Origin: an uncultured Marinoscillum sp.
GTDB taxonomy: Bacteria > Bacteroidota > Bacteroidia > Cytophagales > Cyclobacteriaceae
Length of the DNA stretch: 47,825 nucleotides
NCBI GenBank assembly: GCA_902605755.1
Contig: CACLDR010000009.1
Span: forward strand, 1 to 47,825
Direction of reading: 5' to 3'
The notes beneath the pieces are model-generated. The model was not told the origin of the DNA, ran no database searches, and was given only the letters and a program-made list of their open reading frames with translations. Positions 22,156-46,583 of this stretch are shown in pieces. The position numbers and the translations under genes are program-made. Numbering within the stretch: the first letter of the stretch is position 1; every line of letters starts with the position of its first letter.

Positions 22156-22247
22156 TTGATACACAGATTTGGTATTTATGATTATAATCTAACATTTAGA
22201 GAGTATTTTTTTGATCAATTTTAATTAAAGATTTGATTTCGGAATAT

Positions 22248-24041
22248 ATGTATGGACGTTTAAAATTTTTGGTAATTGTTGCCTTTGTATTTTCTTCTAG
22301 GTCTTGGCTTAAATCTCAAAGCTTTGAGCCACATATTGGGTTTGGAGCTGTTAGTGAACTTAGAGATTCAAACGGCGTTTCTGTCGCAGACTACGATCTG
22401 GATGGAGATATGGATATATTCCTTGTTAGTATACATAAATTTCAGCAAGGCAATAGTCAGACCTGGAGTAGATTAATTCGAAACAATGGACAAGGTAAAT
22501 TTGAAGATGTCACAGAAGAATCTAACCTTTTTTTTCAAAATGGAACTTTAAGGAAAGGTTGGATGGGCGACAGAATGGGAGCCAGTTGGGGGGACTATGA
22601 TAATGATGGATATCCCGATTTATTCCTATCAAATGATGGACTAGATGAACTTTGGCACAACGAAGGCAATGGTCAGTTCAAAAATGTTACTTATGGCTCT
22701 GGTACTAATGGTTGTTTGGATTGTTACAGTTCAAATGGTCTTTGGTGGGACTATGATCTTGACGGAGATCTAGATTTATATGTTAGTGATTGGCTTAAAA
22801 AAAATCGTCTGCATAGAAACGAAGGTAATGGTACTTTTGTTGATATGAGTGAGTTTGCCGGGCTTGACGATGAAGGAAATACTTGGGCAGCAATTCCTAT
22901 TGACATCAACAGGGATACTTTTCCTGATCTATACGTTGTGAATGATTTCGGCGAAAGTCGTCTTTTTATTAACAGTGGGAATGGTAAGTTTAGCGATTCA
23001 ACAAGGTACTATAGATTGGATAATTTAGGTGATGGAATGGGTATAGATGTTTGTGATTATAATGGTGATGGCAACTTTGATATTTACGTTACCAATATTT
23101 ATGATCGTTTACCAAATCCTTTTTTTGTTGGCTCAGAGGAGGGCATATTCACAAATAGAGCATCTGAACTGGGAATTGAAAATACTGGTTGGGGCTGGGG
23201 AGCACGGTTCTTTGATGCTGATAATGACCTTGACGAAGATTTGTATGTTGTCAATGGAATGAAAGTTATCAATGGAAGAGGTGACCAAAATGTATTTTTT
23301 GAAAATGAAGATGGAGTATTTAATAATATTTCTCAAAGCTTAGGTGTTAATAGTATCTCAATTGGAAGGGGTCTAGAGGTTTTTGACTATGACAATGATG
23401 GTGATATGGATATGCTGGTAGGCAATAGAGGCACAAATCTTGTGTTATATAAAAATAAGATAATTCAGACAGATGATCGAAATAAGAATTGGATTCAAAT
23501 TGAACTAGAAGGTACAGAAAGTAATAAGAATGCCTTTGGATCAACAGTTGAAATTAATCTTCGTGGTAAACGTTATTATAGGCATTATTCTGGAGCTAAC
23601 TTGTTTGGCCAGAGTATAAAGCCTATTCATTATGGATTGGCTCATCATGATTTTATCGATGAAATATCCGTTACTTGGCCATCAGGTAAAAAGGAATATT
23701 TCCCTTCAGTGTCTGCCAATCAGCTGGTGAAATTAATAGAGGGAGATTCAAAATTATACAGTACCAATTTGCTTTTGGGAATTGATGATTCTAATAAACT
23801 GATTAATATCTATCCTAATCCATTCGAAAATCAAATCACTTGCAACTTCAGTGAAAAGATCTCTGAAACACTAAATTTTAGTATATTGAATACATTGGGG
23901 CAAATTGTTTATGACCAAATTTTACAAAAAACCCATTCTGCTACTTTAGATTTATCAAATATCAACCTCAGGTCAGGTCTTTATTATTATCAATTTAAAA
24001 GTGGAAAAAATACGATTACAGGTAAGCTATTAAAAAGATGA
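22248..24041 (+). CDS. Second CRTAC1/FG-GAP repeat protein with ASPIC/UnbV and T9SS type A sorting domains
   Basis: This is a clear paralogue of the preceding gene with the same order: signal peptide, FG-GAP propeller (DYDLDGDMDIFLV, DYDNDGYPDLFLSN, DYDNDGDMDMLVGN), ASPIC/UnbV (NAFGSTVEINLRG, VTWPSGKKEYF) and sorting domain (INIYPNPFENQITCNF ... SGLYYYQF). The track begins at TTG 22233, but ATG 22248 gives a cleaner signal peptide (MYGRLKFLVIVAFVFSS). Large blocks such as NNFGLDELWxNxGNG and TGWGWGxRFFDAD-type strings are shared with the upstream copy, which points to duplication. Its stop overlaps the next start (ATGA), so the LamG gene is translationally coupled. Confidence 0.87.
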   Translation: MYGRLKFLVIVAFVFSSRSWLKSQSFEPHIGFGAVSELRDSNGVSVADYDLDGDMDIFLVSIHKFQQGNSQTWSRLIRNNGQGKFEDVTEESNLFFQNGTLRKGWMGDRMGASWGDYDNDGYPDLFLSNDGLDELWHNEGNGQFKNVTYGSGTNGCLDCYSSNGLWWDYDLDGDLDLYVSDWLKKNRLHRNEGNGTFVDMSEFAGLDDEGNTWAAIPIDINRDTFPDLYVVNDFGESRLFINSGNGKFSDSTRYYRLDNLGDGMGIDVCDYNGDGNFDIYVTNIYDRLPNPFFVGSEEGIFTNRASELGIENTGWGWGARFFDADNDLDEDLYVVNGMKVINGRGDQNVFFENEDGVFNNISQSLGVNSISIGRGLEVFDYDNDGDMDMLVGNRGTNLVLYKNKIIQTDDRNKNWIQIELEGTESNKNAFGSTVEINLRGKRYYRHYSGANLFGQSIKPIHYGLAHHDFIDEISVTWPSGKKEYFPSVSANQLVKLIEGDSKLYSTNLLLGIDDSNKLINIYPNPFENQITCNFSEKISETLNFSILNTLGQIVYDQILQKTHSATLDLSNINLRSGLYYYQFKSGKNTITGKLLKR

Positions 24042-27950: not shown

Positions 27951-29990
27951 ATGACAAACATGGCAATTGGAAGCTTACTAATTTATTTATTAGTGACAGG
28001 TTGTAATACGAATACAGATAAGACGATGGTCAGTTGGGTTGAAATAAAAGATTTGGGTGTCCAGGGTGGTTCAATTTTTACTATTCAGTCAGGTGAAAAG
28101 TTTGATGGTATAGTTTTAGGTGCAATAGAGTCAGGAAAATGGGTTGCAGGAAGCGAAGACAAAAAACGAAGTACTTTTGAATTAAATAATATCAAAGCTG
28201 AGACAGAAGCAAGTATTGGAAAGCTGATTCAGATGGCTATTGTTTATAAAGGCAATGAGATAATAATTTACAGAAATGGGGAACTATATGCCACAAATAA
28301 ATCTGAGAACATCGATTTATTGAGAGTGGAAGATAATATTGTTGTATTTGGGGCTCGACATAATGATGAGGATGACTATATCAATGTGGAAATTGAAGAC
28401 GCAAGAATTTATAGTTTAGCGCTTACATCTGCACAACTCAAGTTACTTAAACCAAATGAACCATCAAAGATTGAGCCTTATGCATGGTGGGATTTTGAAG
28501 GAGAAAAAATCAAAGAAAATACCGGTCGTTATAATTTAAATTTATTCAGGGAGGGTGCAGAAATTCGTGATGGAAGATTATTTATTGGTAAATGGGGAGT
28601 CATGACTGCCTTAAAGGAATTTGTTGAAGAAAAACCAAAATGGCCTGATAATCCTCCCGATAATTGGCTGACTTTCCACCTTGCACACCCTGGACCGGGA
28701 GACGGTTTTCCCGGCGATCCGAATCCAATGTACTATTACAAAGGACGCTACCACCTCCATTATATTTATGACAATAACTATGGACCTGCTTATGCACATG
28801 TTTCAAGCACCGACATGGTTCTCTGGAAGTGGCACCAAACTGTTCTTACGCCACCCCTTACTGGGCATGGAATGTATAGCGGAACAGGATTTTTCACTAA
28901 AGATGGTAAACCAGCAATGATTTACCATGGTGAAGGTTCAGGTAGTAATATGATCTCATATGCGCTGGATGATAATCTTGATGAATGGTCGAAACCGGAA
29001 CCAATTGTTTCAATGGATGAAAATGGAGAAGTACATGAAGATTATTGGGATCCTGACATATGGGAAATTGACGATACCTATTATGCATTATCCGGAGGAA
29101 AGGAGCCAAGTCTGATGAAATCAGCTGATCTTAAAAATTGGAAACATCTTGGAAAACTGCTGCACAATGATTTTCCAGAGGATATTGGCATTCCTAGGGA
29201 GGAAGATATTTCATGTGCGAATATTTTTCAGATCGGAGATAAATGGATGCTCCTTTGTATAAGTCACCGCATAGGCTGCCGATATTATCTTGGTGATTTC
29301 GTAGATGAAAAATTTCTTCCAGATGAACATCACTTGATGAATTGGACAGATACCAATTGGGAGGATTTTAGCAATCTGTCTTACTTCGCACCCGAATCAA
29401 TGATCTCTGAAGACGGCAGGCGTGTTATGTATACGTGGCTCATTACTGATGTTAAACCAACCGGTGTACAGGGACTGCCTCGTGAACTTGAACTCCCAGA
29501 AGACGGAGTTCTTCGCATTAAACCTCTAAAAGAACTAGAGTCTCTTAGATACGATGAGATTAGCTATGAAGATAAAACTATCCGTAAAGGATTGAGCTTT
29601 TTACTTGATAAAGTAGAGGGCGATGCTGTTGAACTTGAAATTGTATTCGAAGTGCCGTTACCAAAAGAATTTGGTATAAATATGCTGGGGAACGAGAAGG
29701 GAAATGAAGAACTGAATATTACATATGGCAAGGGACAAAAAGAACTGCGTGTCGGTAAAATCAATCCGCCGTTTGGACTATATGATGGTGAAGATCTCAC
29801 GCTTAGAATTTTTATTGATAAGAACTTAATAGAAGTTTTTGCCAACGATCGCCAAGCTGCAGTTGTTTCCCATCCAAGTATCCGAAAGAATCCAAATATC
29901 AAAATATTCACTAAAGATAAAGATCTTGTTGTTAAAGAGATACATGCATGGAAGATGAAATCAATTTATGAATTGAGCTCAGGTTATTAG
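27951..29990 (+). CDS. GH32-like lipoprotein with N-terminal LamG domain and altered acid/base site
   Basis: A lipoprotein signal (YLLVTGC) precedes a LamG-like domain (about 30-160) and a five-bladed propeller plus beta-sandwich of the GH32 type (about 225-660). The nucleophile motif is present as GDPNP (Asp256) and the stabilising Asp as WDPDIW (Asp367). The usual WEC acid/base motif is instead EDISCANIF: Cys422 is kept, but the position normally holding Glu is Ser421, with Glu418 three residues earlier. From memory, a GH32-related subgroup with ED-x-SC occurs in Planctomycetota and Bacteroidota, so this may be a functional variant rather than a dead enzyme. Substrate could be a modified fructoside. 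It lies in the GC-richer block. Confidence 0.75.
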   Translation: MTNMAIGSLLIYLLVTGCNTNTDKTMVSWVEIKDLGVQGGSIFTIQSGEKFDGIVLGAIESGKWVAGSEDKKRSTFELNNIKAETEASIGKLIQMAIVYKGNEIIIYRNGELYATNKSENIDLLRVEDNIVVFGARHNDEDDYINVEIEDARIYSLALTSAQLKLLKPNEPSKIEPYAWWDFEGEKIKENTGRYNLNLFREGAEIRDGRLFIGKWGVMTALKEFVEEKPKWPDNPPDNWLTFHLAHPGPGDGFPGDPNPMYYYKGRYHLHYIYDNNYGPAYAHVSSTDMVLWKWHQTVLTPPLTGHGMYSGTGFFTKDGKPAMIYHGEGSGSNMISYALDDNLDEWSKPEPIVSMDENGEVHEDYWDPDIWEIDDTYYALSGGKEPSLMKSADLKNWKHLGKLLHNDFPEDIGIPREEDISCANIFQIGDKWMLLCISHRIGCRYYLGDFVDEKFLPDEHHLMNWTDTNWEDFSNLSYFAPESMISEDGRRVMYTWLITDVKPTGVQGLPRELELPEDGVLRIKPLKELESLRYDEISYEDKTIRKGLSFLLDKVEGDAVELEIVFEVPLPKEFGINMLGNEKGNEELNITYGKGQKELRVGKINPPFGLYDGEDLTLRIFIDKNLIEVFANDRQAAVVSHPSIRKNPNIKIFTKDKDLVVKEIHAWKMKSIYELSSGY

Positions 29991-30071: not shown

Positions 30072-31283
30072 ATGAAATTGAAAACCTTAATAATTTATCA
30101 GAAGACAACTGTTTTTGCCTTACTTGTCATTTTAATGGCCTGCTCAAAACGAAAGCCCATGGAAGTTGATGCCAAAACAGTAGAAGGGCAAATTTTACTT
30201 ACCATGGATCAGTGGGCGGAAGCTCTCACATCGGGTGATATTGAGAAGACAATGACATTTTACTCCGAAAACTTCGCCGGTACTGAAGCAAAAGATAAAG
30301 AGGGAGTGAGTGAATTGCTTAATGAAGCCAAGTCCTATGGCATGTTACTGTTATTGGAAATCAATTTGAGGACTACGGATTTAAAGGTTGAAGGAGATAC
30401 GGCGGAAATCGTCATTTATAATGAAGAAGGAGAGCTGGAAATGGACTTTGCACTCGCGAAGGAGGGAAATGACTGGCGAATTATTGGTATACCCTCTGAG
30501 ACCTGTAGCTATGATGACTATAGTGAACCTTTTGGTAATGAATGTATTAATATGGGAGGGTATTACCGTTGTTGGGATATTTTTATTCCGAAGAATTTAG
30601 CAAACAAAGCGCCGTTGGTTCTTGATTTTCATGGTTGGACCGAAAACGCGTCACATCAGCGTTCAATATCTGGATTTGAAGCTCTTGCGCAATCGGAGGG
30701 TTTTATAGTAGTATGGCCTCATGGGTTATGTAGTTCTTGGAATGCGGGGCCCCTATGTTGCGCTCCGGCTTCAAATAATGAAATTGATGACATAGGCTTT
30801 GTTAGAAAAATGATTGAGGAATTAGTAGATATACATAATATAGATGAAAGTCGTATTTATTTAACTGGGCTTTCTAATGGCTGTGCCATGGCACAGCGAA
30901 TAGCCAATGAAGCAAGCAATTTAGTAACCGCTGCAGCATGTATGTCACTTCATCTTTTGACTGAAATAGATGCTGATTATGCCGCAGTACCGGTAATGAC
31001 AATTATGGGGACAAACGACGATTTATATCTTGCAAATGAAGAAATGCCTGGAGCAGTTGAGAATTTTGAGCGCTGGAGGCAAATGAATAATTGTCAGGGA
31101 GCTTACGAAGTGACTTGGAGTTCAGGTGTTAGCGTCACCTGGACATATAAAGATTGTGATAACCAAACGGAAGTAGCGTTGGTGATCATTGATGATGGTG
31201 GTCATATGCTGTATCAAGGTGAGCAAACCAATATTAACACGACCCAATTGGCCTGGGATTTTATGAAAAAATTTAAAAAATGA
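30072..31283 (+). CDS. Lipoprotein esterase: SnoaL-like domain plus PHB-depolymerase/LpqC-like hydrolase
   Basis: ATG 30072 is chosen over 30027 because it gives a standard lipoprotein signal (FALLVILMACSK). Residues about 35-145 resemble a SnoaL/DUF4440-type alpha+beta barrel (LTMDQWAEALTSGDIEKTM). The second half is a polyhydroxybutyrate-depolymerase/feruloyl-esterase-like domain: LVLDFHGWTENASHQ, GLSNGCAMAQ with the catalytic Ser, a probable acid in MGTNDDLYL, and GGHMLYQG with the catalytic His. Paired cysteines (GLCSSWNAGPLCCAP) could form disulphides in the periplasm. Likely role: release of acyl or aromatic esters from the imported glycan. Its stop overlaps the next start (ATGA). Confidence 0.75.
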   Translation: MKLKTLIIYQKTTVFALLVILMACSKRKPMEVDAKTVEGQILLTMDQWAEALTSGDIEKTMTFYSENFAGTEAKDKEGVSELLNEAKSYGMLLLLEINLRTTDLKVEGDTAEIVIYNEEGELEMDFALAKEGNDWRIIGIPSETCSYDDYSEPFGNECINMGGYYRCWDIFIPKNLANKAPLVLDFHGWTENASHQRSISGFEALAQSEGFIVVWPHGLCSSWNAGPLCCAPASNNEIDDIGFVRKMIEELVDIHNIDESRIYLTGLSNGCAMAQRIANEASNLVTAAACMSLHLLTEIDADYAAVPVMTIMGTNDDLYLANEEMPGAVENFERWRQMNNCQGAYEVTWSSGVSVTWTYKDCDNQTEVALVIIDDGGHMLYQGEQTNINTTQLAWDFMKKFKK

Positions 31284-32466
31284 GAGATCTAATACAAATA
31301 CTTATGTTGGTGGTAATTTTTTTTAGTTGCAACTCGTCGGATAAAAAAGCAAAGAACATTGATTCTGAATGGCCAAACAGTCAGCAAAAAAGCGATGAAT
31401 CTAATTATGAGGAGTTCATGGAAAGGTTAAAGGAAAATGAGCCCTATATTGGGTTTTTTGCTGCCGAAAAAAAATATATAGGGACAAAAACCCCTAAATA
31501 TTTAGAAGCAAGAAAGATATGTTTTCAAGGTATAAATGGATCAAAAGATGAGCCATTAAAATTTGTAGATTCTTTCATTGAGATATGTCTTGATGAAGGG
31601 TTGGTGAAACTAGAAGAGCTGGAAACTTGGGAAAATATTTTGACAACACTTAGCTACGAAATGTATCCAAATATGCCAATTTTTAATTTTACGACAGATC
31701 AGATAATTGAGTACCGAGACCTCACTTATACCGAATATCCAAATAAAAAACTGAAACTTGATCTTTTTATTCCCAAAAAACCAATTAAAATACCTATTCC
31801 TGTAATTGTGTGCATTCATGGAGGAGGCTTTGTGGTCAATAAACGAATCTGGTTCGAGCCCTTTGCTATGTATTTGGCAGCTAATGGACTTGCTGCTTTA
31901 ACTATTGATTACCGAAAGATTACTGCGGTAAAATTAAAGGATATTGTTAGCGATTCCAAGGCAGCCGTCCGATGGGTGCGAGCGAACGCGGAAAACTATA
32001 ATATTGATCCCGATAAAATTGGAGCACTTGGAGCATCTGTCGGAGCGCATCTGGTGGCACTCTAGGCACAACAGGGGAAATTCCAGAATTAGAAGGGACT
32101 GGAGGAAATCCTAATTTCTCAAGTAAAGTACAAGCCGTTTTCAGTATTGCGACTCCCGCTTTTGGTCCAATTACAAGTTCTGAGTGGATTTCAATGTTTG
32201 GTTTAGTTGAACAAGAGTTTCATCTACTTTCTCCTTATCACAATATAGATCAATCTTCAGCACCTATATTTCTTCTTCATGGCACTGAGGATGAAATTGT
32301 ACCTCCTGAGAATGCCCAAGAGATGTATGATAAGTATAAGAAATTGGGTTTGAATGTTAAATTAGAATGGGTTCCTGGTCGTGGTCATGATTTCTATGAA
32401 GGAAGCGATTTTGCTATATCAAGAGCTGCAGAGTTCTTTATTTCTCAATTAATTCGTGAAAATTAA
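31280..32466 (+). pseudogene. Alpha/beta hydrolase lipoprotein (acetyl-esterase/BD-FAE-like), split by a one-base deletion
   Basis: Two ORF-track pieces (31280-32065 and 32194-32466) are one gene. The first has a lipoprotein signal (LVVIFFSCNSS), the oxyanion HGGGF and the nucleophile elbow GASVGAHLVAL, then hits TAG at 32063. In the -1 frame, coding continues at once with LGTTGEIPELEG and runs to HGTEDEIVPPEN (acid) and GRGHDFYEG (base). In intact relatives the text is ALLGT-G; one missing base in CTCTAGGC explains the break. All triad residues survive, which favours a very recent mutation or a sequencing error. It overlaps the preceding gene by 4 bases. Confidence 0.75.
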
Positions 32467-32588: not shown

Positions 32589-34199
32589 ATGAATTTGATA
32601 ATCACTACTTTTTTTAAGCACCTAATCCTTTTAATGATAATGGTTTCATTTCATTTCCTGGCCTTTTCGCAGAGTTCAAAAAAACTGAAGGTAGTGTTTA
32701 TCACAGGAGGTGATGAGTATCAGTCTAGGGAGAGAATGAAACCATTCGCTAAAACGCTCGAAAAGGATTATGGTTTCGACGTAATTTATATTGAGGATGA
32801 AGCACCAGGTGCAGATATGGATCCAGATAATGATCCTAAACCCACAGTTTTAAAAGATGCTGAAAAAATAAGGGACGCTGATTTGATGGTTGTATTTATG
32901 CGCTTCAGAAATTGGGAGTCCAAATCATTGGCGCACTTTATGAGTCATTTTGAGGAGGGTAAGCCAGCCGTCGCCATTAGAACAACCACGCATGCATTTT
33001 GGAAAGACCGAACTTTTGCACCTAAATACTTTGGAGGTCACTACAAAACACATTACACTGATCGTATTGTATGTCAAGTAAATCCTGTGCATGCGGAGCA
33101 TCCCATGGTAAGAGGAGTAGAGCGTAAATGGGGTGATGGTGAGGGGCCTTATGTTTCTACACCGTTAACTGAAGGCGCCACTCCGGTAGTTTTTTCATAT
33201 GGTCACTGGAGAGATCACGACAGAAGTCCAGGGATTGGAAATGATAGTTACGATTCTCCCAATTATCCTGTCGCTTGGGCATTTAATGATGAAGGTGCTA
33301 GAAGAGCTATGATCACTTTAGGGAGTTATCGTTCAGGAGATTTAAAAGCTGATTATTTTAAAAATTTATTCTATAATTCTGTTTTTTGGTCCTTAGGTTA
33401 TGAAATACCAAAAAATGGAGTATTATCGGAGGGTAAAACATTTAAAATGGTTGAAGAGATGGTAGCCTATCAACCGAAAAAAATTGATATACCTAAAATT
33501 TCAGAATATACGCTTGAAGAGGGTTGGGAGTTTCTTTTCGATGGAAAAGATTTATCAAAGTGGAAGCATTATGATGTTACAATTGCCCCATCCTCTGTCT
33601 ATTTAGATTATAGAGCAAAATCTGAAGGACCTATCGATTATGCATTGTCACCAGCCAGATGGGAGGTGAAGGAAGGTACCACCGTTGCGCGTCCTGGTTT
33701 TGGAGATATTATTACAAAAGAATACTATAGTAACTATAGACTTCGTTTTGATTACCTAATTCCGAAATATCCCGAATGGGTAACCGGTGAATGGAGAGGC
33801 AATAGTGGAGTTTTCATAAATGGGTCATGGGAAATATCTATTTTGGATACTTATGGTCAGGAAGCCTCAGACCGTTCAAACGGAGCTATTTACAGGGATA
33901 AAGCGCCAGATTTTGAAGCATCAAAGCCTGCAGGCCAATGGCAAACTATGGAAATTGAGTTTATGAATGGATTGGTGACCGTCTTGTTAAATGATGTTAA
34001 AATTCATGATAAGGTAAAAGTTGGCAGACCAACCTTTTTGGGATTTCCAGCGGCTCAATCCTTTGCTGAAATCAGCTTTGACAGCTTCATGGGAATAGTA
34101 TCTAAAGGTCCTATTCGATTGCAGGGGGAGAATTCGGAAGTTCGATTCGCTAATATTGCTATAATGCGACTTTATAATGACGATGAGGAGGATGACTAG
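32589..34199 (+). CDS. Exported ThuA-DUF1080 fusion (3-keto-disaccharide hydrolase-like)
   Basis: The 536-residue protein has a signal peptide (HLILLMIMVSFHFLAFS). A ThuA domain (about 33-275) shows VVFITGGDEYQSRE, DADLMVVFMRFR and the AIRTTTHAFW motif. A DUF1080 domain (about 310-530) shows EGWEFLFDGKDLSKWKHYD, WEVKEGTTVARPGFGDI, GNSGVFINGSWEISILDTYG and the last strand GPIRLQGENSEVRFANI. DUF1080 proteins are jelly-roll enzymes linked to cleavage of 3-keto-glycosides, so this two-step fusion is predicted to act on oxidised disaccharides in the periplasm. A related, larger fusion follows 73 bases downstream. About 120 AT-rich bases upstream hold no recognisable promoter. Confidence 0.85.
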   Translation: MNLIITTFFKHLILLMIMVSFHFLAFSQSSKKLKVVFITGGDEYQSRERMKPFAKTLEKDYGFDVIYIEDEAPGADMDPDNDPKPTVLKDAEKIRDADLMVVFMRFRNWESKSLAHFMSHFEEGKPAVAIRTTTHAFWKDRTFAPKYFGGHYKTHYTDRIVCQVNPVHAEHPMVRGVERKWGDGEGPYVSTPLTEGATPVVFSYGHWRDHDRSPGIGNDSYDSPNYPVAWAFNDEGARRAMITLGSYRSGDLKADYFKNLFYNSVFWSLGYEIPKNGVLSEGKTFKMVEEMVAYQPKKIDIPKISEYTLEEGWEFLFDGKDLSKWKHYDVTIAPSSVYLDYRAKSEGPIDYALSPARWEVKEGTTVARPGFGDIITKEYYSNYRLRFDYLIPKYPEWVTGEWRGNSGVFINGSWEISILDTYGQEASDRSNGAIYRDKAPDFEASKPAGQWQTMEIEFMNGLVTVLLNDVKIHDKVKVGRPTFLGFPAAQSFAEISFDSFMGIVSKGPIRLQGENSEVRFANIAIMRLYNDDEEDD

Positions 34200-34272: not shown

Positions 34273-36450
34273 GTGAAAAAAATGAATTCAATTAATTTTA
34301 TTTTATTGATTTTTTTTGGTCTGTTTAGTTCCCCTATTTTTGCTCAAGATTCAAGACCAAATGTAGTTTTTATCGCTGGAGAGGAGGAATATGGTGCTCA
34401 TTGGACTTTGCCTAAAATAGCTGATGATCTAGAAAGGAGATTTAATATTCACTCTACAGTAATACACTCTTGGCGCTCTGGAGCGCATGATTATGATATG
34501 CCAGGAGAAATTGAGATTCCAGAATACGAAGAAATTAAAAATCTGGAAATTATTAAAGATGCAGATTTAGTTGTTATGCATATTCGTTTTAGACTTCTGC
34601 CTCCGGAGCAACTACAGGTTTTTCAAGATTATTTTGATTCTGGTAAACCCGCTATCGCATTTAGGACTACCAGTCATGGTATGTGGGCGAAAGATCAAAA
34701 AGGTTGGTTTGTTCCCTTTTTCGGGGGTCACTACAAAGGACATATGCCCAATACAGCAGGAACTACCACAATAGTACCTGCTGAGCAAATCGATCATCCA
34801 ATTTTAAGAGGGGTACCCAAGAAAAATGCTATGAATGACGTCATGGGGATTTATATCACTGCTCCACTTAATGATTCTGCCATCCCATTAATGCTTGGAA
34901 AAACAGGATTAATTGGACCTGCACAACCTGTGACTTGGACAAATGAATATCAAAAAGGGCAGAAAATATTTTACACCTCGCTAGGTGGTTTGGAGAGTTT
35001 TGTGGATCCCGGGTTTCTGAATATGGTGTACAATGCCGTGTATTGGGCCCTTGATAGAGAAGTACCCGACAATGGAGTATTGGGGATAGACAACCTTTCT
35101 TATTGGGAGGAAGAAGCTCCATTTGAAAAATATGGATTTGGAGCTTTAAATGAAAATCCATTTGAACTTTTAGAGGAGGATTTAAGGTTGGAAAATCGTA
35201 TCGTTCTTGATTGGGAATTTAAACCATCAAGTCCCCCCAATCCTCCAAAAATGAACATACCCAAAGATGCTATAGTCCTTTTTGATGGTCAAGATCTGTC
35301 TAAGTGGAAACATTGGGATTTAAGTGCTGATCCAATTGCGATGCTACCTGACGCTCGAGCCGTATCGCCCTCTAAAACATTTCCAAATGCGAGGTGGAAT
35401 ATTATCGATGGAGCTGTTGAAGCAAGGCCGGGCTTTGGAAGCATTTTAACTAGAGAAGTTTTTGGTAATTATAAATTACATTTGGATTTTTTGATTCCAA
35501 AAGAACCGGAATATATCCCATCGGGATACAAAGGTTCGGGCAGCATATACCTTGACGGTCGGTATGAAATAAAAATTATGGATTCTTATGCAAAGGAGTT
35601 TTCGAAAGTTAGCAACGGATCGATATTTAATCAAAAAGCACCAATTTCAAATCCCTCAAAACCTGTGAATACATGGCAGTCAATGGATATAATTTATCGT
35701 CAATTTATTGGTCAAAGACCGAAGATATCTGTGATACTTAACGGGCATAAAATTCATAACAATGTTTCAATACTAAGTAGGTCTCCCTTTGCCATCCGGG
35801 AGGATGAACCCTTATATGAATCTAATTATAAGGAGGGTTCGGATATTTTCAATATGAATGTAGATTATTGGGGTGCCGATGTAAAATTCAAAACACGAAC
35901 TGGAGGTTTCCTGCTTACAAATTCCCCCGATAGCAGGCCATGGAATGATGATTCAAAAGGGATAGCCATTTATGATGGTCAGCTTTGGTATAGAGATGGT
36001 TTTGAATATCGTCACGTTCAAAGAAAAAATGAAGCCCCTTTAAATGATGGTGAATGGCATGAAATTTTGATGTTTGCTGATAGCGGAAAAATCAATTTTT
36101 ACATTGATGGTAAATACATGGATCAAATTAAAAATAGGGGATCTTCTATACTTAAAGGTCATATATTACGAATCGGTCAGGCAACAAAGCGTTTTAAATT
36201 GGGAGCTTCTGAGCTACCTGACCCCATAAGGGATGAAACTTTTGATGGTGAGATAGAAAGAGTGCGTTTTTTTAAAAAGGGCTTGAATGAAACAGATGAA
36301 ACGTGGGCAATTTCTAAAAAATTTCTAGTACTCGATTGGAGCCCGGATAGATTGAAAAATAAGTTGCCAAAAATGGGTCCAATCAGAATACAGTCTGATC
36401 TAAGCAAGATAAGATATGCTAATATATGGCTACAGCCATTGAAAGACTGA
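34273..36450 (+). CDS. Exported ThuA-DUF1080 protein with a LamG domain inserted in DUF1080
   Basis: The 725-residue protein starts at GTG 34273 (keeps the basic KK before the signal) or ATG 34282; the signal ends near SSPIFAQ. ThuA covers about 25-265 (VVFIAGEEEYGAHWTLPKI, AIAFRTTSHGMW). DUF1080 begins at VLFDGQDLSKWKHWD (about 335) and reaches LNGHKIHNN (about 495). A LamG-like domain then intervenes (about 510-685; NDGEWHEILMFADSGKINFY, FDGEIERVRFFKKGL). The missing last DUF1080 strand reappears at the C terminus (GPIRIQSDLSKIRYANI), matching the paralogue's GPIRLQGENSEVRFANI. So LamG sits inside the DUF1080 fold. Predicted role: binding and processing a 3-keto-glycoside on a longer glycan. 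The next gene starts 4 bases on. Confidence 0.82.
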   Translation: MKKMNSINFILLIFFGLFSSPIFAQDSRPNVVFIAGEEEYGAHWTLPKIADDLERRFNIHSTVIHSWRSGAHDYDMPGEIEIPEYEEIKNLEIIKDADLVVMHIRFRLLPPEQLQVFQDYFDSGKPAIAFRTTSHGMWAKDQKGWFVPFFGGHYKGHMPNTAGTTTIVPAEQIDHPILRGVPKKNAMNDVMGIYITAPLNDSAIPLMLGKTGLIGPAQPVTWTNEYQKGQKIFYTSLGGLESFVDPGFLNMVYNAVYWALDREVPDNGVLGIDNLSYWEEEAPFEKYGFGALNENPFELLEEDLRLENRIVLDWEFKPSSPPNPPKMNIPKDAIVLFDGQDLSKWKHWDLSADPIAMLPDARAVSPSKTFPNARWNIIDGAVEARPGFGSILTREVFGNYKLHLDFLIPKEPEYIPSGYKGSGSIYLDGRYEIKIMDSYAKEFSKVSNGSIFNQKAPISNPSKPVNTWQSMDIIYRQFIGQRPKISVILNGHKIHNNVSILSRSPFAIREDEPLYESNYKEGSDIFNMNVDYWGADVKFKTRTGGFLLTNSPDSRPWNDDSKGIAIYDGQLWYRDGFEYRHVQRKNEAPLNDGEWHEILMFADSGKINFYIDGKYMDQIKNRGSSILKGHILRIGQATKRFKLGASELPDPIRDETFDGEIERVRFFKKGLNETDETWAISKKFLVLDWSPDRLKNKLPKMGPIRIQSDLSKIRYANIWLQPLKD

Positions 36451-36453
36451 TTA

Positions 36454-37959
36454 ATGAGAAAGAATTTTAAAAATTGTTCTATAATATTTTTATCCATATG
36501 GTTTTGCTTTCAATGTGAATACAAAGCTCCTTTTGAAACTGTTTCAGAAAAATTTAATGGAAGTTTTGAGTTAAATCAATCATCTTTAAATCAATGGGAA
36601 AATGTTGTAGGATGGAATGGTAATGAAGGAGGCGTTTCTGATGATGGTTATTTCGCACCTGTTGATGGTAAATATTATGCTGTACAGAGTGGTGGTGGAA
36701 ATTGGATAACTCAAAAAGAAAACTTGATATTAGAAAAAGGTAAGTCTTATCATCTCTCAGCATGGGTGCGAAGTATCAATGGTAAGAAAAATGATGCCAG
36801 AACAACTGCTGAAATCGCATTCATCGTAGACAAAAAACCTATTCTTAAAATGGTACGCGATATAAATATTCCTTTACTAAAAGGTGTCGCTGCGATAACT
36901 CAAAATGATGATGGCGGGAATGTTTGGATAGATGGTAAATATCGCCATCAATTTTCTGATACGCATATGTACCAGCCTATTGAATCTGATCCAATAAGAG
37001 ATCCTTGGCTACTTGTAAGTGAAAGTAATTACAATGATATTGATGGTTTGGGTTGGGCTGTTGGTAATGTAATAGCTGGCAAACAAAAATATATTTATGG
37101 AACGGTTTATCAAGATCAGGCATCTAATTTCTATTCTTCAATTACATTGATCAAAACTAATGGAATAGGTAGTCCTGATTATAATTGGACCGACCCAGTG
37201 ATTGTTCTTGATCATAAAAAAACAGAATTTCCATGGGTATTGGACGCACACGGATATTTTGATGAGCTATCAGGAAGACTCTGGATGACTTGGGGGGGAG
37301 GTGTATGTTATATAGCTGAAATGGATCCAAATACAGGATTATTTTTGAGCTCACCTGATGAAACAGAATATGATACTCACCCTAAGGGCATACACATTCC
37401 CGTGGCCACCTGGCCTGAAACAAAAGAAGGATGGTGCGGTGATGATTGGTCAAGCTGTTGGATGGAGGGTGCCTCTATTTATAAGTTTAATGATAAATGG
37501 TATTTCCTTGCTTCCTATGGAAATCTGAGCACTAATTATACAATTAGAATGGGCAGAGGTGAAAGTCCGACCGGACCCTTTTATGATAAAAATGGCTTGG
37601 ATATGATGAAATTTGACTCTGTCAGAAATGAGTTTGGAAATAGTATGCTTTTGGGTAATGAGGGAAAGCAACTGGTACCTGGTCATCCTCATATATGGGA
37701 AGAAGATAATAAATATTATTTGGGATATGATTTTCGTAAGGTTATTGGGGAGGGAGAGGTTGGAGATTACCTAGGAATTAGAAGAATATTTTGGTATGAC
37801 GAATGGCCTACTGTTTGGACACCATTGAAGGTGTCATTACATGCTGATGATTTTCCAGAATTAATTGGAAAACCTTTTTTAGTAGGTTTTAGAAATAATG
37901 GAGCTAAGAATTCTATTATGGGAATAGATGCCGTTGATTTGGTAATTAAACGAAAGTAA
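36454..37959 (+). CDS. GH43-like five-bladed propeller lipoprotein
   Basis: A lipoprotein signal (FLSIWFCFQC) is followed by a carbohydrate-binding-like beta-sandwich (about 30-120; NGSFELNQSS, SYHLSAWVRS). A propeller of about 370 residues comes next, with WDPLL-like turns (RDPWLLVSESNYNDIDG, DAHGYFDELSGRLWMTWGG, WMEGASIYKFNDKWYFLASY, GHPHIWEEDNKYYLGYD). The WMEGASIYKFNDKWYFLAS string with its Glu fits the acid position of GH43/GH117-type arabinosidase-like hydrolases, and RDPW could hold an Asp. I cannot identify the complete catalytic triad, so a GH43-like call is safer than an activity. Spaced 3 bases from each neighbour, so clearly co-transcribed. Confidence 0.7.
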   Translation: MRKNFKNCSIIFLSIWFCFQCEYKAPFETVSEKFNGSFELNQSSLNQWENVVGWNGNEGGVSDDGYFAPVDGKYYAVQSGGGNWITQKENLILEKGKSYHLSAWVRSINGKKNDARTTAEIAFIVDKKPILKMVRDINIPLLKGVAAITQNDDGGNVWIDGKYRHQFSDTHMYQPIESDPIRDPWLLVSESNYNDIDGLGWAVGNVIAGKQKYIYGTVYQDQASNFYSSITLIKTNGIGSPDYNWTDPVIVLDHKKTEFPWVLDAHGYFDELSGRLWMTWGGGVCYIAEMDPNTGLFLSSPDETEYDTHPKGIHIPVATWPETKEGWCGDDWSSCWMEGASIYKFNDKWYFLASYGNLSTNYTIRMGRGESPTGPFYDKNGLDMMKFDSVRNEFGNSMLLGNEGKQLVPGHPHIWEEDNKYYLGYDFRKVIGEGEVGDYLGIRRIFWYDEWPTVWTPLKVSLHADDFPELIGKPFLVGFRNNGAKNSIMGIDAVDLVIKRK

Positions 37960-37962
37960 AGT

Positions 37963-39666
37963 ATGAAAAAAATTATTTTTTATATGATGATTTTTAATTC
38001 TACTAGCATGTTTGCTCAGCAGTTTATAGAATTGAAAGTAGAGAATAAATATATCCATCTACCAGTTACTCATGACTATAAGGATGAAACGCGTCTCGAA
38101 TTAGTTTTAAATAATAACACAGAACAGGTATTTGATATTTGGCTTGCTGATTCAGAACCTGATTTTTGGGTCTTTTTAGATGTGTCTATTTATAATCAAA
38201 AAAAAGTTATAATTCGAACACAGTATGGTGATGAACGAAAAGGGCTTAACCTTATTTACCAGTCAGATAATCGAGATTACTTGAAAAATGTCTATAAAGA
38301 AAAATATCGACCCCAGTTACATTTTTCTAGCATGAGAGGTTGGAATAATGATCCCAATGGGCTTATTTATTACGATGGAGAATATCACCTTTTTTATCAG
38401 CATAATCCATATGGATCGGCATGGGGGAATATGCATTGGGGACATGCTAAAAGCAAGAATTTACTTAACTGGGTTCAATTATCTGAGGCATTGTACCCTG
38501 ATGAGATAGGTGTTGCTTATTCCGGATCAGCAGTTATCGATTACGAAAATACTTCAGGATTCAAAACTGGAAATGATGATTTAATGGTAGCTATATACAC
38601 GACTACTTGGTTTCCTGATAGGTATGAGGAGTCTAATCCTGGACAAAAGCAACTCGAGACTCAAAGTTTAGCATATTCAAATGATAAGGGCCTTACATGG
38701 ACTAAGTACAAAGGGAATCCTGTTATCGGAGATAGAAGAGAGCTTCTGGGCAGTACAAATAATCGTGATCCTAATGTGTTCTGGCATGAAACAACAGATA
38801 AATGGGTAATGATACTTTTTGAAAGAATAGGTATGTCTATTTTCACTTCGGATAATTTAAAAGATTGGAAATATGAAAGTCATTTTGAGACATTTTGGGA
38901 GTGTCCTGAGCTATTTGAATTGCCTATAGATGAAGATTCAAATAATACTAAATGGGTAGTGTACGATGCGGGGGGCGATTATGTTTTAGGAGACTTCGAT
39001 GGGAAAGAATTTAAAATCACCTCTGGTGCGCATAACTATATTGATGGAGAGTTCTATGCGGCTCAAACTTTCGAAAATATACCTTCTTCAGATGGAAGAA
39101 GAATACAAATCGGATGGGCAACTATTCCAACACCTGAAATGCCTTTCAACATGATGATGGCTTTTCCTACTCAATTGACCCTCAAGACTGGAAAAGAGGG
39201 AGTGAGAATGTTTAATAAACCTGTAAAAGAAATCTCAGAACTCCACAAAAACGGGAAAATATTAAATAATATTACACCGCAGGATGCTAATGAAGCACTT
39301 GTAAATATTAGATCTGAGAAGCTTCATGTTAAATTTCAAATTGAGAATATCAATGCCATTATGTATACCTTCAATTTTGGGAGTGATCAACTTACCTATT
39401 CGATCAACAATAATAAGTTCATTTTTAATGATGAGGAGAAAGTGTTCAAATATCTTCCAGAGTTTGCAAGTAAGAACATGACTCTAGAGATTATTCTCGA
39501 TAAAACGAGCATTGAAGTTTTTGTTGATGAGGGCCGCTTTACTATGGTTTTGCCTCGAAGTTTGGAAACAGAATATGATGGAATTTCCATTGTACCCGGT
39601 GACGAAGATCTCACTGTAAAAATTAAATCCCTTGAGGTTCACGAAATGAAATCAATATGGGACTAA
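37963..39666 (+). CDS. Glycoside hydrolase family 32 (levanase/inulinase/invertase type)
   Basis: A 567-residue exported enzyme (signal ends near MFAQ). The N-terminal beta-sandwich (about 20-115) resembles the DUF4980 module of Bacteroidota levanases. The GH32 propeller keeps all three catalytic acids: Asp130 in GWNNDPNGLIYYDG, Asp269 in NNRDPNVFWH and Glu313 in FWECPELF. The C-terminal sandwich (about 430-567) ends IEVFVDEGRFTMVLPRS, the usual GH32C motif. It releases fructose from beta-fructosides such as levan, inulin or sucrose; exo versus endo action cannot be told from sequence. It is the strongest evidence for the locus substrate and is the last gene of the tightly packed block. Confidence 0.92.
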   Translation: MKKIIFYMMIFNSTSMFAQQFIELKVENKYIHLPVTHDYKDETRLELVLNNNTEQVFDIWLADSEPDFWVFLDVSIYNQKKVIIRTQYGDERKGLNLIYQSDNRDYLKNVYKEKYRPQLHFSSMRGWNNDPNGLIYYDGEYHLFYQHNPYGSAWGNMHWGHAKSKNLLNWVQLSEALYPDEIGVAYSGSAVIDYENTSGFKTGNDDLMVAIYTTTWFPDRYEESNPGQKQLETQSLAYSNDKGLTWTKYKGNPVIGDRRELLGSTNNRDPNVFWHETTDKWVMILFERIGMSIFTSDNLKDWKYESHFETFWECPELFELPIDEDSNNTKWVVYDAGGDYVLGDFDGKEFKITSGAHNYIDGEFYAAQTFENIPSSDGRRIQIGWATIPTPEMPFNMMMAFPTQLTLKTGKEGVRMFNKPVKEISELHKNGKILNNITPQDANEALVNIRSEKLHVKFQIENINAIMYTFNFGSDQLTYSINNNKFIFNDEEKVFKYLPEFASKNMTLEIILDKTSIEVFVDEGRFTMVLPRSLETEYDGISIVPGDEDLTVKIKSLEVHEMKSIWD

Positions 39667-41854: not shown

Positions 41855-42679
41855 ATGAGTAAAATTTCACTAGGCGCAGAGGTTTACACATGGTTTATGA
41901 GTGAGGGTGGAAAAACCTTTAAAAACCAATTGGGCCATATGATTGAAGTGGTGGCTGAAGCAGGCTTTACCGGTATCGAACCCATGCACTTTTGGATGGG
42001 TGATTGGGATGATCCAGTTAAATTATCTGAAAAACTTGATCAACACAATATAGAATTGGCTGGTATAGCATTAGCCTTAGATTGGAATAACCCATTTGAA
42101 ACAGCTTATGAGAGAAGTCAAGCAGATAGTGTAATTGATTTGATTAGGCACTTCCCAGAATGTGTATTATGCACTGTGCAGTTGCCCTCCGGTCGGCATG
42201 ATATTGTGGAGCGCAGATTAAATTTAATTTCTAATGTAAATATGGTTTCTAAAAGAGCTGCAGATATGGGAATAAAGTGTTCTTTCCATCCCAATTCACC
42301 TGAAAACTCCATAAATAGGACTGAGGAGGACTATGATGTAATTCTTAGTGGCTTGGATCATTCTGTTACTGGTTGGACACCAGATGTCGGGCACATTATA
42401 AATGGCGGGATGGATATTCTTCCTAAAATGGAAGAATATAAATCATTAATCAATCATGTGCACTACAAAGATTGGAATGGGGAACCTGAATGGGCTTTGA
42501 TGGGAAAAGGGAAAATTAACTTTGAAGAGATTACCAAATGGTTAGTAAAAGAAAATTATAAAGGCTGGATACTTTGTGAGGACGAAGCAGATGAAGCAAT
42601 TGAAGATCCAGATGGTGTAACTTTACATGACGGAAAGTATTGCAATCAAAAATTAATGCCTATTATTTTTGATAAATAA
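41855..42679 (+). CDS. Sugar phosphate isomerase/epimerase-like TIM-barrel protein (IolE-like fold)
   Basis: The 274-residue cytoplasmic protein belongs to the same TIM-barrel superfamily as its upstream neighbour but to a different branch. Visible motifs are AGFTGIEPMHFW near the N terminus, GIKCSFHPNSPENS in the centre, TPDVGHIINGGMD with the likely metal Asp and His, HVHYKDWNGEPEWALMGKGKINFEEI carrying the conserved His and the GxGxI/V loop, and WILCEDEADEA with the final acidic residue. Inosose dehydratase and related 3-keto-sugar enzymes share this set, so epimerisation, isomerisation or dehydration of a keto-sugar is plausible. The start of the next gene lies just past its stop. Confidence 0.75.
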   Translation: MSKISLGAEVYTWFMSEGGKTFKNQLGHMIEVVAEAGFTGIEPMHFWMGDWDDPVKLSEKLDQHNIELAGIALALDWNNPFETAYERSQADSVIDLIRHFPECVLCTVQLPSGRHDIVERRLNLISNVNMVSKRAADMGIKCSFHPNSPENSINRTEEDYDVILSGLDHSVTGWTPDVGHIINGGMDILPKMEEYKSLINHVHYKDWNGEPEWALMGKGKINFEEITKWLVKENYKGWILCEDEADEAIEDPDGVTLHDGKYCNQKLMPIIFDK

Positions 42680-42710
42680 AATGATTACTATTTTGAGAAA
42701 CATAATCCAA

Positions 42711-45700
42711 ATGAGGAAAAAAGAGCACTATTTCATTGCGGCGAACTTCTGTCTTCTATTATTTATTTGTTGTAATTCATCTGGTGATGAATTGGATCAG
42801 TCGCTAACTACTGTTTTAGATAAAGATGCTGCAACGATATCTGTATTTGTAAGCAATAATAATCAACCAATCCTTGTTCAAAATGCGAAACCAGATTTTC
42901 GGCCTTATTTGCATCCTATTCTAGCGCCTGATGGAAAAGGCTTTCTTACCGAAAATAGTCCAGAGCATCATTCTCACCAAACAGGGCTCTATTGGGGTTT
43001 TACAAGAGTAAACGGTCAAAAAATTGGGATTGATAGTTTGATGAAATTCTTTTATGATCCAAAGACTGAAGAGCAAAAAGTAATTAAAGGGCGTGATTAT
43101 TTCCATAATATGGGAAAAGATTACTGGAAACGAGTGAGCTTTGATATTCTTGATCCAATAGGTAAAAAGGTGAGATGGCAGACGGTATACTTAATGTTGG
43201 ATGCAAATGGAGATCCACTGATGAAAGAAAAACAGGTTTGGTCTCTTGAATTAAAAAAAGAACAATATTTACTAGAATTGGAATGGAATGGAGAGGCTAT
43301 CGAAGAAATTGTTATCGGAGAAATGCAGTACGGCGGAATGTTTCTTCGTATGCCATGGAAGGAAGGAATAAAAGGTGAAGTTGTTAATTTCGCTAGGCAG
43401 AAAAACGAAAAAGCAGAAGGCCAGCACGCGTTATGGATGGATGTAGGTATGCAGGTTGAAGGAAGAGATGATATGGCTCATATTGCTATTTTTGATCATC
43501 CCGATAATAGGGGGTTTCCGCAAACTTGGAGAGTGGATTCACAATTGGGTATCGGACCTAGTCGAGCCATTATGGGTGATTGGAGAATTTCAAAGGGGAC
43601 TACAGAAACTATTAAACATGGATTAGTAGTTTATACTGGAGAGTTAAATGATTTGGATCTAACAGAAAAATGGAAAGGTTATGTAGGAGATTATGATATG
43701 TACTCAACCGCTGGTTTGTGGGAGATCGCTCAGGAAGAAGGGTTTAAGGCGAAGTTTCTGACTTCTGATGAGCAGGTAGCAAAAATGACTATCAAAGATG
43801 GGTATGAGGTCAATGCTTGGGCGTCAGAGCCGATGATAACTCAACCAATGGCATTTTGTTGGGATGATAAAGGGCGATTGTGGATTGCTGAAAATAGAGA
43901 TTATGAGTCACGCGGAAGTGGCTTCTCAGGATCTGGAGACAGTAGAATCCTTATAATTGAAGATACCAATGGTGATGGAAGAGCAGACTCAAGAAAGGTT
44001 TTTGCCGAGGGTATTGCATTTCCATCAGCATTAGCGGTAGGTTTTGGTGGTGTATTTGTGGGAGCTCCGCCCAATCTGTTATTTATCCCCGACAGAGATG
44101 GAGATGATGTTGCCGAAATGGATGATATTGAGGTAAGATTAACTGGATGGGGCATTAGAGACAGACATGAGACTATAAACAGCTTTCATTGGGGACCTGA
44201 TGGTTGGCTTTATGGCCTAGAAGGGTTTGCCACTCCATCAAAAATACGAAGGCCCGTAGGAAAGGGTAAAATTTACAAACACAATGAGCAATTCCCTGAA
44301 GATTTATTAGAAGCAGATGGCATTGATATTAATGGGGGTGTTTGGAAATACCATCCAACTAAAGACAGATTTGAAGCTGTAGCTCATGGATTCAGTAACC
44401 CTTGGGGTATTGATTATAATTCTAAGGGTCAGCTTTTTATTAGTGCGTGTGTGATCCCTCATCTTTTTCATATTGTGCCGGGTGGTATTTATCATAGGCA
44501 AGGGGGTCAACATTTTAATTCTTACATTTATGATGATATTAAAACCATAGTGGATCATCGCCACAGGTCAGCGCACGGGGGAGCGCGAATTTATATGTCA
44601 GATGCATTTCCTCCTACGCAAAATAATCGAATATTTATGGCTAACATTCACGAGCACGCCGTTCTCTCCGATATTCTTGTTTCCAGGGGTTCCGGTTTTG
44701 TAGCCAAACATGGCGAAGATTTTATGATGGCTAACAATGCACAATGGGTAGGATTTAGTTTGGAAATTGGTCCTGACGGAGGGCTATATGTGCTTGACTG
44801 GCATGATGCAGATATTTGTGGCAACACGGTGGCCCATAAGGAGACAGGAAGGATTTTTAGAATAATGCCGAAAAAATCCCATGCTAAAGAGTGGAAAGGG
44901 AGATATGATGATTTGGCCAAGTTTTCAGACTTAGAGCTTGCTGAACTTCAGCTTAGCCCGTCCGATTGGCATGCAAGACGTGCTCGAGTAATTCTTCAAG
45001 GTCGAGCCGTCAAAGAAGCTATAGCTACGGAAGCAATAGAAAAGTTGATGAATATTTATAAGAATGAAAGTAATTCTGATTTTAGATTACGAGGACTTTG
45101 GGCACTTCATGTTACCAGTTCCTTGAGAGAGAATGATTTGCTTGCTGCTCTAGAAGATTCAGATGAATATATTAGAGCGTGGTCAATTCAACTATTGGGG
45201 GAAGAGAGGATTATATCATCAAACGCATTACAAAAGTTTTACACCATGGCTGTTAATGATACGTCTGCTGTTGTAAGATTATATCTGGCAGCGGTGTTAC
45301 AACGCATTCCTATAAATGATCGCTGGGAGATTGTATCTGCTTTAAGTCAAAGGTCTGATGATAAAAATGATCATAATATACCTAAAATGATATGGTTTGC
45401 GATGGAGCCTAATGTTGCTATTGATGTAGAAAGGGGATTAAAATTAGGATTGGAAACTAAAATGCCAATTATTGCGGAGTATATAGCAAGAAGGGTGTTA
45501 GATGCTAATGGATTGGAGCAATTGTTGACTGCAATACAAAAACCCTCTGCAAATCAGAAGTATCTATTAAATGGGCTAAGAAATGAAATTGAAAATCGCT
45601 CTGACATAAAACCAACAGACAACTGGGAACAAACCTATGCATTATTGTCTTCCAATGAATCCACAAAAGGTATAGCTATCGAGATTGCTCAGCTTTTTGG

Positions 45701-46583
45701 TAGTGCAGACGCTGCCAATCAGCTCCTTACAATTCTTGAAGATACCAATTCATCGCTTGAAGATAGGCAGAAATCACTAACAGCCTTGGCCAGCCGCGCA
45801 TGGTCCGGATTAAAGCCTAAAATATCGGAATTCATGGATGATCCAGACTTAAGAATTCAGGCAATTAGAGCAATAACTCATTATAAGGACATCGAATTAG
45901 GTTGGGATATGTTTGAAAAGTTTGAAAAGTTTAATGAAAAAGAGAAGCTTGAAATTTTATTAGCGTTGTCCTCGAGGAGAGTTTATGCGAATATTTTGAC
46001 CGAGGCTATTTCAGAAGGTTTCATAATGAAGAGTGAAATTCCTGCTCATATAGCTAGGCAGCTAAGACGAGTCATGGGCAATGGTTTCGTTGAAGTTTGG
46101 GGTCCTATAGACGACATTTCTGCTGATGTTGAGTCTAGTTATAAACGCTATAAAAAACTTTTAACAGACAAAAAATTGGAACTTGCAAGTACTATTAAGG
46201 GTAAAGCAATTTTTTCACAGACTTGTGGGGCATGTCATCAATTGTTCGGTGAGGGAGGCATTTTAGGCCCCGAATTGACGGGATCAAACCGATCAAATAT
46301 TGATTATCTCCTTTCCAATATATTGGAACCGAGTGCCGATATTCAAGATGATTATAAAATGGTAGTTATTACCACTAGAGATGGTCGTACTTATCTAGGC
46401 ACAGTGGCTAGTGATAATGATAGATATTTAGTTTTAAATATCTTGGGGCAGAGCAAGGCAAAGATCAATAAGTCAGATATACAATCAAGAGAAGATACGC
46501 CTAATTCTATGATGCCTGCTGGGCTATTAGATAATATGAATGATCAAGAAATTTTGGATTTAGTCGCTTACTTAAAATCATAA
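42711..46583 (+). CDS. Fused DUF6807 (PmoA-like) and PVC-type haem-binding CxxCH lipoprotein
   Basis: ATG 42711 is preferred over TTG 42669 and ATG 42681 because it gives a compact lipoprotein signal (FCLLLFICCNSS); the product is then 1290 residues. Residues about 50-330 are a DUF6807/PmoA-type domain (HPILAPDGKGFLTENSPEHH, HHSHQTGLYWGF). Next comes a six-bladed dehydrogenase-like propeller of the Planctomycetota-type N-terminal kind (about 360-720; DDKGRLWIAENRDYE, NSFHWGPDGWLYG, GPDGGLYVLDWHDADICG). HEAT-like helices cover about 740-1120, and the C-terminal cytochrome c has CGACH at 1172-1176, the downstream Met in NSMMPAG and GRTYLGTVASDNDRY. Predicted: periplasmic sugar oxidation coupled to haem c. 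Substrate and cofactor are unproven. Confidence 0.8.
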   Translation: MRKKEHYFIAANFCLLLFICCNSSGDELDQSLTTVLDKDAATISVFVSNNNQPILVQNAKPDFRPYLHPILAPDGKGFLTENSPEHHSHQTGLYWGFTRVNGQKIGIDSLMKFFYDPKTEEQKVIKGRDYFHNMGKDYWKRVSFDILDPIGKKVRWQTVYLMLDANGDPLMKEKQVWSLELKKEQYLLELEWNGEAIEEIVIGEMQYGGMFLRMPWKEGIKGEVVNFARQKNEKAEGQHALWMDVGMQVEGRDDMAHIAIFDHPDNRGFPQTWRVDSQLGIGPSRAIMGDWRISKGTTETIKHGLVVYTGELNDLDLTEKWKGYVGDYDMYSTAGLWEIAQEEGFKAKFLTSDEQVAKMTIKDGYEVNAWASEPMITQPMAFCWDDKGRLWIAENRDYESRGSGFSGSGDSRILIIEDTNGDGRADSRKVFAEGIAFPSALAVGFGGVFVGAPPNLLFIPDRDGDDVAEMDDIEVRLTGWGIRDRHETINSFHWGPDGWLYGLEGFATPSKIRRPVGKGKIYKHNEQFPEDLLEADGIDINGGVWKYHPTKDRFEAVAHGFSNPWGIDYNSKGQLFISACVIPHLFHIVPGGIYHRQGGQHFNSYIYDDIKTIVDHRHRSAHGGARIYMSDAFPPTQNNRIFMANIHEHAVLSDILVSRGSGFVAKHGEDFMMANNAQWVGFSLEIGPDGGLYVLDWHDADICGNTVAHKETGRIFRIMPKKSHAKEWKGRYDDLAKFSDLELAELQLSPSDWHARRARVILQGRAVKEAIATEAIEKLMNIYKNESNSDFRLRGLWALHVTSSLRENDLLAALEDSDEYIRAWSIQLLGEERIISSNALQKFYTMAVNDTSAVVRLYLAAVLQRIPINDRWEIVSALSQRSDDKNDHNIPKMIWFAMEPNVAIDVERGLKLGLETKMPIIAEYIARRVLDANGLEQLLTAIQKPSANQKYLLNGLRNEIENRSDIKPTDNWEQTYALLSSNESTKGIAIEIAQLFGSADAANQLLTILEDTNSSLEDRQKSLTALASRAWSGLKPKISEFMDDPDLRIQAIRAITHYKDIELGWDMFEKFEKFNEKEKLEILLALSSRRVYANILTEAISEGFIMKSEIPAHIARQLRRVMGNGFVEVWGPIDDISADVESSYKRYKKLLTDKKLELASTIKGKAIFSQTCGACHQLFGEGGILGPELTGSNRSNIDYLLSNILEPSADIQDDYKMVVITTRDGRTYLGTVASDNDRYLVLNILGQSKAKINKSDIQSREDTPNSMMPAGLLDNMNDQEILDLVAYLKS

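Follow-up and report, generated by a model that had tools for sequence, protein, structure and literature searches.

Architecture of the insert-bearing protein

The window analysed here, a 47,825-nucleotide stretch from an uncultured Marinoscillum sp. (contig CACLDR010000009.1, forward strand), contains a sugar locus with SusC/SusD, two GH32 genes, a GH43 gene, esterases, three ThuA-containing genes and TIM-barrel isomerase/epimerase-like genes. Within this locus lies a gene, hereafter the target, whose product joins a ThuA domain to a DUF1080 domain that is itself interrupted by a lectin-like LamG domain. Its open reading frame was found at 34273-36450, where an earlier note on this DNA had placed it, and encodes 725 residues from the GTG at 34273. 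The ATG at 34282 is the more likely start as judged from the translation, as it yields a 722-residue protein with a plausible signal peptide. Reading of the translation revealed neither a lipobox nor a type IX C-terminal tail. The parts of the target, and the paralogue that adjoins it, are as follows.

34282-34347, + strand: predicted N-terminal signal peptide (MNSINFILLIFFGLFSSPIFAQ, followed by D), secreted or periplasmic, from a reading of the translation (hydrophobic stretch, then FAQ-D)
34540-35049, + strand: ThuA domain (PF06283), residues 90-259 (Pfam, E 3.8e-15)
35269-35769, + strand: N-terminal part of DUF1080 (3keto-disac_hyd, PF06439), residues 333-499 (Pfam)
35770-36348, + strand: inserted segment including linkers, residues 500-692 (Pfam, Foldseek)
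35887-36294, + strand: LamG core of the insert, residues 539-674 (Laminin_G_3, E 8.9e-9; Laminin_G_2, E 2.2e-6)
36349-36432, + strand: C-terminal part of DUF1080, last strand GPIRIQSDLSKIRYANIWL, residues 693-720 (isolated-tail Pfam match, shuffle test)
32589-34199, + strand: insert-free paralogue, a ThuA-DUF1080 fusion of 536 residues (Pfam and alignment with the target)

The Pfam matches of the target exceed their gathering scores for ThuA (57.1 bits versus 33.4), PF06439 (91.5 versus 26.8) and Laminin_G_3 (PF13385; 36.1 versus 27.6). In the paralogue Pfam gave PF06439 only, unbroken at 33522-34163 (profile positions 1-186), and the ThuA part is visible by alignment with the target.

LamG interrupts DUF1080 between its last two strands

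In the whole-protein Pfam scan, the PF06439 match of the target covers profile positions 2-153 of 187 and the final 34 positions are absent. Taken by itself, this end point would suit a truncated DUF1080 domain followed by LamG, with the C-terminal GPIRIQ strand being a chance resemblance. We regard such an artefact as extremely improbable, since the missing piece was recovered beyond LamG by further searches. The isolated tails of the target and of four orthologues were scanned against all 24,736 Pfam models. The last 50 residues of the target gave PF06439 positions 159-186 as the sole family with E<=1 (E 0.14), and the four orthologue tails had PF06439 as their best family (positions 152-187, E 0.0038-0.066). 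These matches are individually weak, and it is the selection of the same missing PF06439 piece by all five of the five tails that carries weight. A last-strand profile made from insert-free DUF1080 domains scored 26.8 bits on the real tail versus a maximum of 6.8 on 5000 shuffles, a difference of 20 bits, and the DUF1080 profile built here recovered both parts of the domain, splitting into an N-terminal and a C-terminal stretch in insert-bearing proteins. A complete PF06439, last strand included, is thus found in the target, discontinuously (2-153, then 159-186 past LamG).

The spacing of shared motifs gives the size of the insertion. From KIHNNV (494-498) to GPIRIQ (702) there are 203 residues in the target versus about 30 in the paralogue, which puts the net insertion at about 173-175 residues, in keeping with the LamG of about 175 residues that the earlier note had read between the shared KIH-N-V strand and the final GPIRIQ strand. 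A plain global alignment with the paralogue misplaced the last strand, aligning it inside LamG, and for this reason nesting was tested by the tail-only and split-profile searches. Judged by sequence, it is confirmed that LamG interrupts the DUF1080 domain of the target between its last two strands, and the absence of LamG from the paralogue, whose PF06439 is contiguous, is likewise well supported.

Structure predictions

AlphaFold models were obtained for the full mature protein (11 sequences) and for residues 325-725, the 401-residue DUF1080-LamG part (15 sequences), with a mean predicted local distance difference test score (pLDDT) of 54 and 64, respectively. LamG is the best-modelled part, and LG-domain structures are the top Foldseek matches of the model, which supports an LG fold for the insert; Foldseek on both models returned LG structures and 4qhz (TM 0.56 to the target). 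AlphaFold renders the last strand as a strand (block pLDDT 68-84), and the linker ahead of it falls below 50. A DUF1080 domain complete without its C-terminal strand, which according to the earlier note would speak against nesting, was not observed, in models that did not let the partner of the strand be read, and Foldseek did not demonstrate the packing site of the strand on either AlphaFold model. The same note held that the insertion must emerge next to the DUF1080 active face, and models of this quality did not confirm it.

Conserved residues have changed in insert-bearing DUF1080 domains

Counted per domain, an NSG motif is present in 74 of 77 insert-free DUF1080 domains, in rows that include near-copies and are not all independent. 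Of the remaining three, one has GDSG, one is a divergent row and one is a fragment that itself carries the insert. The motif, an observed family feature and not a published definition, is also seen in alignments to the solved structures 4qhz (GNSG), 3hbk (GANSG) and 3h3l (GNSG). We found that its asparagine is absent from all nine insert-bearing proteins (9/9), the target included, which have GSGS, GTGG or GASG instead; the paralogue keeps NSG. The loop before the last strand (PT..G) has T in 37/41 and G in 38/41 insert-free rows, and as these rows include L034 and L038, two loci that are actually insert-bearing, its true conservation is slightly higher. At the insertion site this loop is replaced by SPFAIR or similar in insert-bearing proteins and is kept in the paralogue. 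E432 (in all rows), W375, W468, T393 and N490 are kept in insert-bearing domains. Conservation of the loop at the insertion site fits a functional loop, and does not locate the active site.

The loss of the NSG asparagine together with the remodelled loop shows that the target is not just the enzyme of the paralogue with an added module. The earlier note was right about the added LamG, and its substrate-docking module is a reasonable guess, but it had missed the loss of the asparagine. The substrate or chemistry of the insert-bearing DUF1080 has, as these residues suggest, probably shifted.

Distribution and origin of the insertion

Across 61 genomes sampled from the phylum there are 77 PF06439 matches above the curated cut-off (by our count of the rows), all of which reach at least position 185 save the target (153) and one ending at 108. 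The remainder of the latter was found in the next frame just downstream, and only the target stops at 153 within a long frame. Among 397 family genomes, the insert-bearing form occurs in G000, G005, G009 and G014 and, split over two contig pieces, in G197; among 396 genomes across the phylum, no carrier besides the window's own genome was found at E<=1e-32. A scan of GTDB contigs gave eight loci of the insert-bearing family (L031-L038), 47-93% identical over the matched part, of which L038 ends at a contig edge ahead of LamG. The labels of these loci, which derive from metagenome bins, are Flammeovirgaceae/Bacteroidetes, Candidatus Neomarinimicrobiota and Dehalococcoidia.

The orthologues share the architecture of the target and the site of its insert, and the final strand, GPIR[IL]QSD[LIT]SKIR[YF][AS]NIW, is nearly invariant. 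A maximum-likelihood tree of 83 DUF1080 rows groups the nine insert-bearing proteins in one clade (100/98) whose sister comprises insert-free ThuA-DUF1080 proteins (joint clade 99/97). The simplest account is that a ThuA-DUF1080 ancestor received LamG once, and the origin of the insert is apparently single. The insert profile gives no match to the window's other LamG proteins, so a derivation from them is not supported. Scans of viral contigs gave no relative of the target, and in plasmids DUF1080 matches were confined to the N-terminal part, with none covering 80% of the query. By sequence, the target represents a rare LamG insertion in a known DUF1080 family, with correlated loss of a conserved residue; in the literature searched we found neither a description of LamG nested in DUF1080 nor a report of the correlated loss of the NSG residue.

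Some of these loci merit separate mention. The Dehalococcoidia locus L035 (DLRJ01000056.1, UBA7891) shares the gene neighbourhood seen in the Neomarinimicrobiota loci (ThuA, ThuA, UnbV/ASPIC-like, GWxTD, MFS), and the contig may be misbinned or may reflect transfer between phyla. In the non-Bacteroidota loci L035 and L036 a GWxTD-domain protein lies directly upstream of the insert-bearing gene (L035:3508-4956 and L036:3466-4893), in the position that the ThuA-DUF1080 paralogue occupies in the window's relatives. Genome G006, of the same genus as the window, retains of the target gene only an N-terminal remnant of 35 residues (66% identical; G006:C57:2015-2119, next to locus L005), which adjoins an intact paralogue and probably marks a recent loss of the insert-bearing gene.

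The surrounding locus as a lead to the substrate

Three further genes of the window bear on the possible substrate.

36454-37959, + strand: GH43-family protein directly downstream of the target, 3-base gap (Pfam)
37963-39666, + strand: GH32 protein with DUF4980 (Pfam)
27951-29990, + strand: GH32 protein with an N-terminal LamG, appended and not nested (Pfam)

At three loci in two lineages, the insert-bearing gene has L-arabinose catabolism genes downstream. In L034 (7245-13039) araA follows it, with araB and araD a few genes further; in L036 (10741-13194) araB and araD are annotated downstream in the same direction; and L037 (10776-13205) has the gene order of L036, with araB and araD assigned by similarity of its open reading frames to L036. 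In the window's genome araB is on a different contig. We rejected co-occurrence of AraB as proof of an arabinose role: true AraB is present in 15/28 family genomes, about half, so that only the ara synteny counts. This synteny is a lead pointing to furanoside-containing glycans. An apparent in-frame TGA in the AraB gene of G006 was set aside, as it lies outside the 549-codon open frame and is probably the terminal stop.

Comparison with known systems

Few proteins of the large DUF1080 family have been characterised, and the border between enzymes and binding modules is blurred in it. Its members include BT2157, a 3-ketotrehalose hydrolase, a Caulobacter protein that is probably a 3'-ketolactose hydrolase (PMC9007349), and an endo-xanthanase (PMC10881899). 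The target resembles the 3-keto-disaccharide hydrolases (BT2157, CCNA_01705; 4qhz, 3hbk, 3h3l) in having both DUF1080 halves by sequence, the conserved E, W and G positions, a signal peptide and a sugar-catabolic locus; it differs from them in the LamG before the last strand, the loss of the NSG asparagine and the PT..G loop, and the fused ThuA. Cleavage of 3-keto-glycosides by the target is putative, and the hydrolase name could be transferred to it only with an enzyme assay. The paralogue at 32589-34199 has the same two-domain order in an adjacent gene, is about 35% identical and belongs to the sister clade, but has no LamG and retains both NSG and PT..G.

Carbohydrate-binding modules (CBMs) inserted within catalytic domains are known from Bacteroidota polysaccharide loci: CBM58 in SusG and CBM4 in Xyn10C/Pm25 (PMC7848910). 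The target likewise has a beta-sandwich inserted within a domain in such a locus, the sandwich being carbohydrate-binding in those proteins. Their hosts are GH13 and GH10 barrels and demonstrated active enzymes, whereas the host here is a DUF1080 domain known from sequence. The inserted modules of SusG and the Xyn10C-type xylanases appear helpful on insoluble substrates (PMC7848910). CBM66 modules, by comparison, occur as additions to other enzymes, and the literature examined describes no LamG nested within one. The GH32 protein at 27951-29990 also places a LamG in a predicted secreted protein of the sugar locus, but that LamG is appended at the N-terminus and unmatched by the insert profile, unlike the nested LamG of the target.

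Possible role of the nested LamG

We tentatively favour, as at best an even prospect, a reading in which LamG acts as a carbohydrate-binding lid or dock over a re-specialised DUF1080 acting on furanoside-rich glycans. The sequences themselves show a ThuA-DUF1080 fusion with a predicted signal peptide that received LamG, apparently once, between its last two DUF1080 strands and was then inherited and spread with the insert always at one site; in this lineage the near-invariant NSG asparagine has been lost and the PT..G loop beside the insert remodelled. With both of its ends tied into DUF1080, LamG would be fixed in position and not flexible as the LamG appended to the GH32 protein would be, and a role as a glycan-binding lid or docking module above the DUF1080 sugar site is plausible, with SusG-CBM58 and Xyn10C-CBM4 as precedents. 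Candidate substrates would be arabinose- and/or fructose-containing glycans handled within a polysaccharide utilisation locus, and the adjacent intact paralogue would keep the ancestral activity, presumably 3-keto-glycoside cleavage. Several points weigh against this reading. Sugar binding, the position over the active face and the changed substrate are all things that we infer; some LamG domains do not bind sugars, and among solved LG domains those of laminin, neurexin and SHBG are closest to the insert. The AlphaFold models are too weak to place LamG over the active face, the NSG asparagine may be structural, and co-occurrence with arabinose genes is weak, as AraB is present anyway in about half of the family (the 15/28 genomes noted above) and was not found in the carrier G005.

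The loss of the NSG asparagine in every insert-bearing protein could instead mean that their DUF1080 is no longer an enzyme and has become a CBM66-like binder, forming with LamG a two-lectin targeting unit for ThuA or for the GH43 and GH32 neighbours. One and the same domain can be assigned to CBM66 and to DUF1080 (PMC5673643), the known ligands of CBM66 modules are fructan ends or xanthan side chains (PMC11002231), and GH32 genes lie within the locus. E432, W468, W375, T393 and N490 are nevertheless intact, and we consider this reading somewhat unlikely. It is unlikely, too, that LamG serves only to stabilise or space, as an insertion that a surface loop tolerates with substrate binding unaffected. 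The inserted CBMs of SusG and Pm25 are largely independent in action (PMC7848910), but the insert is kept by every complete member of the diverged clade across lineages and is accompanied by changes at conserved DUF1080 positions. More far-reaching, and quite doubtful, is the proposal that LamG in a functional loop and the NSG loss together converted a 3-keto-glycoside enzyme into a distinct activity or receptor for arabinofuranose-containing glycans that was passed between phyla as a unit; were this true, the substrate scope of DUF1080 would be set by whatever plugs into the loop before the last strand.

The insert clade, in which a single insertion goes together with the loss of one near-invariant residue, next to an unmodified paralogue, offers a ready comparison that could reveal which residues make DUF1080 an enzyme and the role of the loop before the last strand. 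It also cautions that a profile match alone is insufficient to name such proteins 3-keto-disaccharide hydrolases.

Other features of the window

Upstream of the paralogue, a BD-FAE-type esterase (31280-32065) has 261 residues versus 394 in the close relatives L031 and L032 and is followed by about 520 gene-free bases, which would fit either a truncating stop or frameshift or a fault in the assembly. At 20356-24041, also in the sugar locus, two FG-GAP/UnbV_ASPIC proteins that resemble each other and bear type IX secretion tails lie side by side, apparently through tandem duplication. The locus is flanked by two large cytochrome c fusions at 12786-15884 (DUF6797-cytochrome) and 42669-46583 (DUF6807-DUF7133-HEAT-cytochrome c), which could be oxidising partners in keto-sugar formation.
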